A DNA stretch of 57,462 bases from NCBI GenBank assembly GCA_019912885.1, contig JAIOHV010000126.1, positions 1 to 57,462 on the forward strand. Direction: 5' to 3'. Source of the stretch: a bacterium (GTDB taxonomy: Bacteria > Lernaellota > Lernaellaia > JACKCT01). Under the pieces are notes generated by a model. That model did no database searches, was not told the origin of the DNA, and was given only the letters and a program-made list of their open reading frames with translations. Position numbers and translations under genes: made by a program. This document shows, piece by piece, positions 52,842 through 57,204 of this stretch. How positions within the stretch are numbered: position 1 is the stretch's first letter; every line of letters starts with the position of its first letter.

Positions 52842-53711
52842 TCACTCCGCGAGCGTGCCGCCGGGTCGAACGTCCGCTGGCTCGCGGTGCGTTTCGTCGC
52901 CGCCGTCCGCGCGCCAATATTCGCGCTGGCGGCGGAAGGGCGCGAAAAGGACGTTGGCGAGGCGGTTGTCGCCCTCGCGCATATAACCCGGCACGCCGAT
53001 GCGTATCCGGTCTTGCGGGATGCCGAGCACGATCGTGCGGTGCAGGCGATCCCAGAACGAGAAGACGACGGAATAGTTCGAGTTGGTCTCGCCGCGGATC
53101 TGCGAGTGGTGGATGCCGTGCATGCGCGGCGTGACGATGAGAAGGTTCAGGCGGCGCTCCCACACGATCGGCAACTTCAGGTTCGAGTGATGAAAAAGCG
53201 TGCCGGCCTGGAAGACGCCCTCGTAGATCACGTAGCCGACAGGAGAGATGCCGACAAGAAAAATCTGCACGACGCGGAAAGCGGCGGAAAACGCGATCTC
53301 GCCGAAGTGGAAACGGAACGCGGTGGAGACGTCGAGGTCCGGATCGAAATGGTGGACGTTGTGAAAGCGCCACAAAAACGGCACGGCGTGATTCAGGCGG
53401 TGCCAGTAATAAAACGTGACGTCCATCAGCAGAAGTCCGACGACAAACGCCGCTTGCGGCGGCAACGCAAGCCAGTTGACGACACCGAAGTCTTTATCCG
53501 TTTGGCGCACGAGCGGCTCGACCAGCGGCGAGATGATCGCCCGCGCGATCAGAAAAGCCCCGCCGGCCAGGACGAGGTTGACGAAGGCGCGCGCGAAAAA
53601 CGCGCGGCGGCGCTCGCGCAGCGGAAACAAGCGCTCGAACGCGAGAAGGGAAAGGAAATAGCCGCTGAAAACGGCGGCGATAAGGACGGCATCCGGCATG
53701 ACTCTTTGCAT
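52842..53711 (-). CDS. Sterol desaturase/fatty acid hydroxylase-family membrane protein
   Basis: A 289-residue integral membrane di-iron enzyme from ATG 53711; the frame extends upstream to 53798, but the N-terminal TM begins right after this ATG. The histidine clusters HRLNH (104-108), HNVHH (117-121), FHHSN and GIHHSQ fit the fatty acid hydroxylase superfamily. That family hydroxylates or desaturates sterols, fatty acids, carotenoids or alkylglycerol ethers. Four TM segments are visible. The substrate is unknown. It is divergent from the baeRF gene across a 297-bp gap. Confidence 0.9.
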   Translation of the reverse strand: MQRVMPDAVLIAAVFSGYFLSLLAFERLFPLRERRRAFFARAFVNLVLAGGAFLIARAIISPLVEPLVRQTDKDFGVVNWLALPPQAAFVVGLLLMDVTFYYWHRLNHAVPFLWRFHNVHHFDPDLDVSTAFRFHFGEIAFSAAFRVVQIFLVGISPVGYVIYEGVFQAGTLFHHSNLKLPIVWERRLNLLIVTPRMHGIHHSQIRGETNSNYSVVFSFWDRLHRTIVLGIPQDRIRIGVPGYMREGDNRLANVLFAPFRRQREYWRADGGDETHREPADVRPGGTLAE

Positions 53712-54008
53712 TATGGACCGAAAACGCGCTCGCCGGCGGTCGGCCGCGTGACGCGCGTCAAAAATATTTCTCGCGCCGCTTCCGATTTTGAGCGACACTT
53801 ATAAAGGGAGGCGAACTTTGGCCAAACGCGCCCAATCCAGGCAAGGCCGGCGGACGAAGCCGCGTGCGCGATCTCACCAAGCGATGACGCGGTCGCGCGG
53901 AAATTATCGCCGCCTTCGCCCATTGGCGTTAGTTTGAAAAGGAAAGAACGACCGAAAGGCGCCCTCGCCGCGCCCCGGCAACGATAGGCTTCTTCAGGAG
54001 GACGATTC

Positions 54009-55193
54009 ATGCCGCACCGTACCGACAAGCACACCGATCCCATCACGCCCGAGCTCATGCGCGATCTTCTCGCGGTGGAAACCGACGTCGCGGTTTCGAT
54101 CTACATGCCGACGCATCGCCGCGGGCGCGAAACGCAGCAGGATCCGATCCGCCTGAAAAATCTGCTGCGTCACGCGGAGGAGCGCCTCGCCCGCGATCGC
54201 CGCGCGCCCGAGGCTCGCGAGTTGCTCGAGCCCGCGCGCGCGCTGATCGACCGCGGCGCGTTCTGGAAAACGCGCTCGGACGGGCTCGCGGTTTTTATCT
54301 CGGCGGATCATTTTCTGGCCCTGCGGCTTCCGTTTGAGGTGCCCGAATCGGCCGACGTCGGCCGGCGCTATTTCCTGACGCCGCTTGTCCCCGCGCTGGA
54401 GAGCGCGCGCGTCTTTTACGCGCTCGCGCTCGATCAGGACGGCACGCGGCTTTTTTCGTGCACGCCGGCAAGTTACGAGGAGATCGCGTTTCCTCCGGAC
54501 GTGCCTGTCGATCTGGCGACCGCGACGCGCTTTGACGAGGAGCAGAAATCGCTGCAATTCCACACCGGCACGGGCGTCGCCGGACCGGGTGGGCGCGCGG
54601 CGATGTTCCACGGCCAGGGCGCGGGAGACGAAGCGAGCATCAAGGATAAGGCCCGGGAGATGTACCGGCAGATCGATTCGTTCGTGTGCCGCTATCTCGG
54701 CGAGACGAGCCCGCCGCTGGTGCTGCTGGCCGCGGAGCCCAATCGCGGCCTCTATCGCGAGATTTGCCGCTACCAGAATCTTCTGGAGCACGGCGTCGAT
54801 GCGCATCCGCGCGATCTGCGCGACGAGGAGCTGCATGCGCGCGCGCTGGCGGTGGTCGCCGAACTGTTTGACGAGGTACGGCGCGAGGACGTGGCGCGCT
54901 TTGTCCGCCTGGACGGCCACGGCGCGGCGCGGGCGGCGCGCAAGCCCGAGGACGTCGTGCGCGCGTCGATGAACCGGCGCGTCGAGGCGCTGCTGCTGCG
55001 CCACGGCGAGCGATTGTGGGGCGAGATCGGCGAGGGCGAGGATGTGCGCGTGGACGACGGTCCAAGCGACGCGGCGACGGATCTGGTGAATCTGGCGGCG
55101 ACCGAGACGATGCGTTACGGCGGCCGCGTGCACGTGGTGCGTGGCGACGACCTGCCCGCGGATGTGAAGATGGCGGCGATTTTGCGGTATTAG
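54009..55193 (+). CDS. Bacterial archaeo-eukaryotic release factor (baeRF)-like protein, probably family 3
   Basis: A 394-residue soluble protein from ATG 54009 (GGAGG 8 nt upstream). The N-terminal VSIYMPTHRRGRETQQDPIR followed by LKNLLRHAEERL, then the FWKTRSDGLAVFIS block and a C-terminal FGAGxV-like Rossmann part, match my memory of the baeRF families. These are bacterial homologues of the eRF1 catalytic and C-terminal domains, thought to act on ribosomes or tRNA. No GGQ motif is evident; a GGRAAMFHGQG segment stands in its place (around residue 196). It is a single gene with its own terminator, and the function is inferred from family only. Confidence 0.75.
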   Translation: MPHRTDKHTDPITPELMRDLLAVETDVAVSIYMPTHRRGRETQQDPIRLKNLLRHAEERLARDRRAPEARELLEPARALIDRGAFWKTRSDGLAVFISADHFLALRLPFEVPESADVGRRYFLTPLVPALESARVFYALALDQDGTRLFSCTPASYEEIAFPPDVPVDLATATRFDEEQKSLQFHTGTGVAGPGGRAAMFHGQGAGDEASIKDKAREMYRQIDSFVCRYLGETSPPLVLLAAEPNRGLYREICRYQNLLEHGVDAHPRDLRDEELHARALAVVAELFDEVRREDVARFVRLDGHGAARAARKPEDVVRASMNRRVEALLLRHGERLWGEIGEGEDVRVDDGPSDAATDLVNLAATETMRYGGRVHVVRGDDLPADVKMAAILRY

Positions 55194-55194
55194 C

Positions 55195-55230
55195 GGAGGA
55201 TCGAGGATCGAGGATCGGGGATTGAGTGCT
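55195..55230. repeat. GAGGATC heptamer array
   Basis: Three to four GAGGATC-type heptamers directly after the baeRF stop codon. They are related to the heptamer arrays at 29439, 29724, 34325 and 35455. Confidence 0.6.
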
Positions 55231-55234
55231 GAAG

Positions 55235-55260
55235 CGGTGCGCCAGGGCGTACCGTTTTTT

Positions 55261-55261
<1 letters not shown>
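55235..55261 (+). terminator. Rho-independent terminator of the baeRF gene
   Basis: An 8-bp stem CGGTGCGC/GCGTACCG (one G-T pair) with a CAGG loop is followed by seven T residues (55255-55261). It ends exactly at the stop codon of the convergent treZ gene. Confidence 0.8.

Positions 55262-57204
<1,943 letters not shown>

Follow-up and report, generated by a model that had tools for sequence, protein, structure and literature searches.

Genes and signals at the locus

The DNA analysed, hereafter the window, is a stretch of 57,462 nt that carries a gene for a three-domain protein of the baeRF/Balon type (Table 1). Both flanking genes lie on the opposite strand, so the baeRF gene is, as far as the map shows, monocistronic. 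As the initial annotation stated, it seems to be transcribed on its own and to have its own terminator; a ribosome-binding site precedes the ATG. The terminator hairpin comprises 20 nt and is directly followed by seven T. RNA folding of the 41-nt stretch 55225-55265 gave -17.9 kcal/mol (z -3.38), with none of 200 shuffles equally stable, and the signal was less marked for the 72-nt stretch 55194-55265 (z -1.72; 10 of 200 shuffles equally stable). The site was absent from the output of a simple terminator pattern scan.

Table 1. Features of the baeRF locus, with positions in the window and residues of the 394-aa protein.
Feature	Position	Strand	Basis or remark
Fatty-acid hydroxylase-type gene (upstream neighbour)	52842-53798	-	Pfam
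Ribosome-binding site AGGAGG	53996-54001	+	Read directly; ATG seven bases on
Antisense ORF, 379 aa	53994-55133	-	Overlaps the baeRF gene
CDS, baeRF/Balon-type three-domain protein, 394 aa	54009-55193	+	ATG start; ORF map
Tip predicted to point at the decoding centre, residues 37-42 (RRGRET)	54117-54134	+	Alignments
Middle domain, eRF1 catalytic-domain fold, residues 134-284	54408-54860	+	Pfam match 136-284; VIA-align
Long loop in place of the GGQ loop/Balon lasso, residues 176-212	54534-54644	+	Alignment, model
C-terminal (eRF1 domain 3/Pelota-like) domain, residues 284-394	54858-55190	+	VIA-align; ends Arg393-Tyr394
Intrinsic terminator, hairpin 55235-55254 and T7	55235-55261	+	RNA fold, sequence
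Alpha-amylase-type gene (downstream neighbour)	55261-57204	-	Pfam

The downstream neighbour, an alpha-amylase/DUF3459 protein that may serve trehalose synthesis, is convergent with the baeRF gene. The four nearest other genes scanned with Pfam were ordinary (fatty-acid hydroxylase, histidine kinase, alpha-amylase type and M3 peptidase). Ten further ORFs of the window were scanned and four of them matched Pfam, as an M19 dipeptidase, two ABC-type proteins and cytochrome c552, none of which has any bearing on the baeRF gene. The antisense ORF is read as a shadow ORF on the basis of its codon-position GC, which mirrors that of the gene.

Assignment to the Balon-type baeRF family

Relatives were collected as loci fetched by patterns over LQFHT and GRETQQDPI, and 80 of the 140 confirmed relatives were taken. 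The resulting 63-row alignment holds the window protein and 62 relatives; the 18 loci left out (L020, L024, L027, L028, L034, L035, L044, L045, L057, L059, L060, L071, L075, L078, L079, L084, L089 and L090) are mostly near duplicates, the further reasons being broken frames (L024, L034 and L044), truncation (L078) and an odd start (L020). The three broken frames, all in public genomes, reflect either sequencing error or decay of the Balon-type gene. The relatives fetched in this way come from many phyla and are 28-41% identical to the window protein.

Homology to bacterial relatives of the archaeo-eukaryotic release factor, as proposed in the initial annotation, was confirmed by the HMM search it had suggested. 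Five Pfam baeRF models matched the 394-aa protein, every one above its curated cut-off: family 7 (103.9 bits, 1.1e-29, cut-off 27.2) and families 3, 6, 11 and 8 (91.4, 84.9, 53.7 and 46.2 bits against cut-offs of 31.5, 27.5, 27.2 and 27), which makes the protein a member of the Pfam baeRF clade. The single NCBIfam match was NF052287, the AOC03_06830 (Balon) ribosome hibernation factor equivalog, at 139.1 bits and thus far below the equivalog cut-off of 330 bits; we therefore file the protein as a Balon-type baeRF of a divergent subclade and not as a Balon orthologue or equivalog. With the single protein as phmmer query, the sole PDB match at E<=0.001 was Balon (8rd8_B, 1.2e-22, residues 18-394). 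The 63-row profile retrieved Balon (3.3e-43) and Msmeg1130 (1.5e-5) from the PDB, along with designed proteins and an unrelated subunit as the other three matches (E 0.0087-0.35), and Rv2629 was not among these five; the distance of the window protein from Balon is much smaller than that of Msmeg1130 from the profile. All 63 rows matched NF052287 and Pfam baeRF families 7, 3 and 6 at E<=0.001; 23 of them also matched the model for MSMEG_1130, and a single one that for Rv2629. The best row reached E 1.8e-58 against NF052287, about 200 bits when scaled from the score of the window protein, from which we infer that none of the rows reaches 330 bits.

Neither a GGQ nor a NIKS string is present in the protein, in line with the GGQ deficiency noted at the outset, and the possibility of a release factor was rejected for this reason. 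The protein falls within the broad description of Balon-type proteins (PMC10901736): it is three-domain and aeRF1-like, longer than 300 aa, free of NIKS and GGQ, and significantly homologous to Balon in the phmmer search. It is thus a further member of the known Balon-type family in a divergent subclade, and the new point is confined to an altered tip and a longer loop, family and mechanism being already known.

Predicted structure

The AlphaFold2 model computed from the 63-row alignment had a mean pLDDT of 90.4 and a pTM of 0.84, and was poorly defined at residues 1-6 and about 181-210. In VIA-align comparisons the top structure was Balon (Z 28.2, rmsd 6.2, 350 aligned), followed by Msmeg1130 (Z 22.7-23.3), Rv2629 (Z 19.4) and archaeal aRF1 (Z 13.6); Dom34 (Z 11.6) and archaeal Pelota (Z 11.4) scored lower. 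Foldseek ranked three Balon chains first (best 3.3e-24), then two Msmeg1130 chains, one aRF1 and one eRF1 chain, and Rv2629. The initial annotation had staked its proposal on structural similarity to eRF1 domains 2 and 3, and the similarity found extends over all three domains, the match to aRF1 covering residues 16-394. Taken separately, residues 129-283 matched the eRF1 middle domain 2hst (Z 9.4) and residues 284-394 the archaeal release-factor C-domain 3ir9 (Z 11.6). A C-domain beta-hairpin used for EF-Tu(GDP) is described as a feature of Balon-type factors (PMC10901736); the model has strands at 325-331, 337-340 and 346-349, which align to Balon with single-residue gaps only.

Ribosome-contact residues

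The residues through which Balon contacts rRNA are given in Table 1 of PMC11317432, among them Arg368-Tyr369, which contact 23S A1067 and A1095. These align with Arg393-Tyr394 of the window protein, and among the 62 relatives the Arg is found in all and the second position holds Tyr in 50 and Phe in 10. The decoding-centre His-Pro of Balon is missing from the window protein, in which Arg38-Gly39-Arg40 stand in place of Balon Glu26-His27-Pro28 in the alignment; 46 of the 62 relatives likewise have Gly at the second of these positions and nine have Pro at the third. All five proteins aligned from the lower-scoring whole-genome matches that side with Balon (L104-L108) keep this Pro; L109-L117, with lower scores, were left out of the alignment. 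Balon Lys207, Gly296, Asn344 and Asn345 likewise have other residues in their place, Ser234, Arg323, Arg369 and Tyr370, and of Balon Gly176-Ser177-Asp178 only the Gly is kept (194), within a loop of uncertain alignment. Msmeg1130 also lacks the tip His-Pro in the profile alignment and yet binds the A site, as does Rv2629 (PMC10901736), so that loss of the His-Pro does not exclude A-site binding. Seven columns, including N51, W86, G338 and R393, are invariant in the 63 sequences, and are kept in the window protein by definition, as the alignment includes its row.

The middle-domain loop

In Balon-type factors a lasso loop and a bL27 trap are described at the peptidyl-transferase centre (PMC10901736). 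The corresponding loop of the window protein carries LQFHT...GGRAAMFHGQG and is about 14 residues longer than that of Balon, given 69 residues here against the 55 between Balon residues 160 and 214. Model confidence is low at 181-210 (block means 59-66) and the alignment there is uncertain. Across the 63 sequences G202 is found in 62, H201 in 54 and R196 in 45. The loop also contains a Gly-Gln pair (G202-Q203); position 203 is H in 38 sequences and Q in 19, so Q203 is no conserved equivalent of the GGQ glutamine, and the idea that it acts as a catalytic residue of that type was rejected.

The pattern FHT...GRAAMFHGQG is partly common to relatives in many phyla. Fetching the loci by LQFHT and GRETQQDPI patterns selected to some extent for the loop and tip residues, so that their conservation in the 63 rows is in part an effect of the sampling. 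Among pattern-free whole-genome matches above 300 bits (n=12, which omits the window's own gene, contains two pairs of near duplicates and includes some of the same genes as the pattern-fetched loci), LQFHT was found in five and His-Gly at 201-202 in seven. Judged from these sequences, the long patterned loop is frequent in relatives and not universal. One could speculate that the protein represents a second, widespread class of Balon-type factors that has lost the His-Pro and whose loop, lengthened by about 14 residues into FHT...G.R.A..FHG[HQ]G, reaches into the catalytic centre to act directly on it or on the peptidyl-tRNA end. We regard this as rather unlikely; if true, the loop would serve as a plug or conceivably as a slow hydrolase, and hibernation would be imposed from the catalytic and not from the decoding side.

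Distribution and phylogeny

The 63-row profile matched 25 of 386 genomes including the window's own, in which there was one match, and thus 24 of the 385 others, in agreement with the sporadic distribution claimed initially. Matches were absent from all six other genomes of the same class, four of which are at least 90% complete and the other two 77 and 84. The absence in the class rests on this profile search, with its 25 matched genomes, because a PF18849 search of the same six genomes was negative with a control that also gave no match. A first scan of the genome contigs with the single protein found no relative. Both transfer and repeated loss are possible explanations of the sporadic distribution. 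The two genomes G103 and G369, from one genus, each contain three Balon-type matches to the subclade profile, two high and one low.

In a tree built by quick search the window row forms a long branch (1.24), its highest identity to any relative being 41%, near the base of a large multi-phylum group (support 89, not starred), and the smallest starred set holding it comprises 14 rows with Balon among them. Its exact place is unsure in view of the long branch and unusual composition. Such a branch, the replacement of several Balon contact residues, the lack of a close relative and the absence of the gene from the searched members of the class could also mark a diverged remnant that has hardly any role on the ribosome, or none. 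This we consider very unlikely, given an intact reading frame with ribosome-binding site and terminator, a confident AlphaFold2 model and the retention of the seven invariant columns, which by construction include the window row.

Genomic context of relatives

Neighbouring genes of the 62 loci were predicted simply as the longest ORFs, a rule under which some of the 122 called are probably not genes, and 117 were scanned with Pfam; the remaining five are the downstream neighbours of L053, L064, L070 and L081 and the upstream neighbour of L087. The scan identified seven mechanosensitive channels, five HPF (S30AE) proteins, four universal stress proteins and three cold-shock domains. HPF is thus the direct neighbour in 5 of 62 loci (L043, L052, L054, L065 and L068), where at about one HPF per some 4,000 genes we estimate well under one by chance among 117 neighbours. 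A tblastn search for HPF beside the 80 pattern-fetched relatives found none, which the five in the Pfam scan mark as a false negative, and a Pfam scan of ten size-picked neighbours also contained no HPF. The three cold-shock domains are fused to three of the five neighbouring HPF proteins (L043:6995-7633, L065:6738-7310 and L052:9268-9897), and the hosts of these fusions include the cyanobacterium Mastigocoleus and a Dehalococcoidales MAG.

Relatives were also found on 17 of 72,556 plasmid records, on 3 of 50,697 phage records and, in one viral scan with two short patterns, on one viral contig. Together with the sporadic distribution and the absence from the class, this could be read as a phage- or mobile-element-linked translation blocker, employed in defence or by the mobile elements themselves. 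Such a role is very improbable. The three phage records are without annotation, so that the link to phage response drawn in the initial annotation is thin; of eight viral structure matches at E<=0.001, seven come from named giant viruses and several are annotated as eRF1; and the nearest genes scanned in the window are ordinary. Stress genes lie nearby in four of the six plasmid loci examined out of the 17: one adjoins an HPF/RaiA gene, two are near a cold-shock gene and one lies between universal-stress and stationary-phase protection genes, the other two having no clear stress gene adjacent. The window protein had no PADLOC match at E up to 0.1, and it was rejected as a defence gene; a phage origin was likewise rejected, with only the three phage records and the one viral contig in its favour.

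The Balon-type gene of a conjugative Enterobacter hormaechei plasmid (L007:6001-7047) is flanked on either side by IS1 copies and lies close to iraM and a cold-shock gene, and a Nitrobacter hamburgensis plasmid has one (L008:3941-5059) among universal-stress, PRC-barrel and stationary-phase protection genes.

Probable ribosome hibernation and alternative functions

The view that these proteins are experimentally almost untouched is out of date since the publication of Balon in 2024 (PMC10901736). Balon, which contains neither GGQ nor NIKS, is reported to bind in the A site whether the ribosome is vacant or translating, to admit EF-Tu(GDP) as a partner there and to be compatible with RaiA. About 20% of representative bacteria are described as having homologues, usually encoded close to stress genes, with raiA the most frequent neighbour, and E. 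coli as having none (PMC10901736). An earlier study of sequences and genomic context by Burroughs and Aravind made the case that most of the baeRF families are hydrolases that lack activity and may act with HPF to obstruct the A site (PMC6514570), and potential Balon homologues in archaea were reported in 2026 (PMC13324472). A literature search, mostly judged at the level of search results, found no experimental study of the divergent subclade.

We consider it probable, at roughly 0.78, that the gene encodes a Balon-type ribosome hibernation factor. Its closest functionally characterised relatives act in ribosome hibernation, GGQ and NIKS are lacking, the C-terminal Arg-Tyr is conserved and HPF adjoins the gene in 5 of 62 relatives; counted against it are the Arg-Gly-Arg tip, the four lost Balon contacts, the missed equivalog cut-off and an HPF gene that is not adjacent. 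The 4.8-Mb window genome has one HPF match, a 107-aa protein on another contig (C138), downstream of a gene that we take to be RpoN. By analogy with Balon, under starvation or stress the protein would enter the ribosomal A site without reading mRNA. The N-domain would then occupy the decoding centre and the middle-domain loop lie close to the peptidyl-transferase centre, and the C-domain, placed at the GTPase centre, could be joined there by EF-Tu(GDP). Elongation would thereby be halted and idle ribosomes protected, with an HPF/RaiA protein tolerated alongside, and peptide release would not be expected.

The main alternative, also named in the initial annotation, is ribosome rescue, one of the options that Burroughs and Aravind proposed for baeRF proteins (PMC6514570), in which the protein would enter stalled ribosomes and cause Pelota/Dom34-like splitting or peptide release through its own loop. 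The fold shared with Dom34 and Pelota and the Gly-Gln pair in the loop are compatible with this, but the variability of position 203 and the hibernating activity of the nearest tested relatives (PMC10901736) argue against it. The window genome also encodes SmpB, two RF-1-domain proteins and bL27 with its usual N-terminal tail elsewhere, and acVLRF1 was not found in it; standard termination and trans-translation are probably covered by the RF-1-domain proteins and SmpB, which favours a different role for the baeRF protein. Rescue is therefore unlikely, and A-site hibernation, fitting better than either rescue or release, appears the best reading. What stood of the initial interpretation is thus the homology, the missing GGQ, the lone gene with its terminator and the sporadic spread; the suggested functions in rescue, phage response and peptidyl-tRNA hydrolysis, the last for want of a conserved GGQ-type glutamine in the loop, are not the best supported. 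Hibernation would link a gene of a lineage with few sampled genomes to a stress pathway that was recognised only recently, and the analysis points to a multi-phylum subclade in which two ribosome-contact regions are unlike those of Balon.

Comparison with known systems

Among characterised proteins, aRF1/eRF1 and Pelota/Dom34 share the three-domain fold with the window protein at about 10-20% identity, and differ from it in that it lacks GGQ and NIKS. The Pfam baeRF families 7, 3 and 6 (PF18849, PF18845 and PF18848), which it matches above curated cut-offs, are families of predicted function whose models cover the middle domain only (residues 136-284 or 136-324). The mycobacterial Msmeg1130 and Rv2629 (PDB 8v9j, 8v9l and 8v9k) share its fold and are more distant in sequence than Balon. 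Balon itself (Psychrobacter urativorans AOC03_06830; PDB 8rd8, 8rdv and 8rdw) differs in the His-Pro of its tip, its shorter loop and the NF052287 cut-off below which the window protein falls, but has in common with it the full-length three-domain aeRF1-like architecture, 23.6% identity over 364 positions, the lack of GGQ and NIKS, the QDPI.LKN segment and the C-terminal Arg-Tyr.
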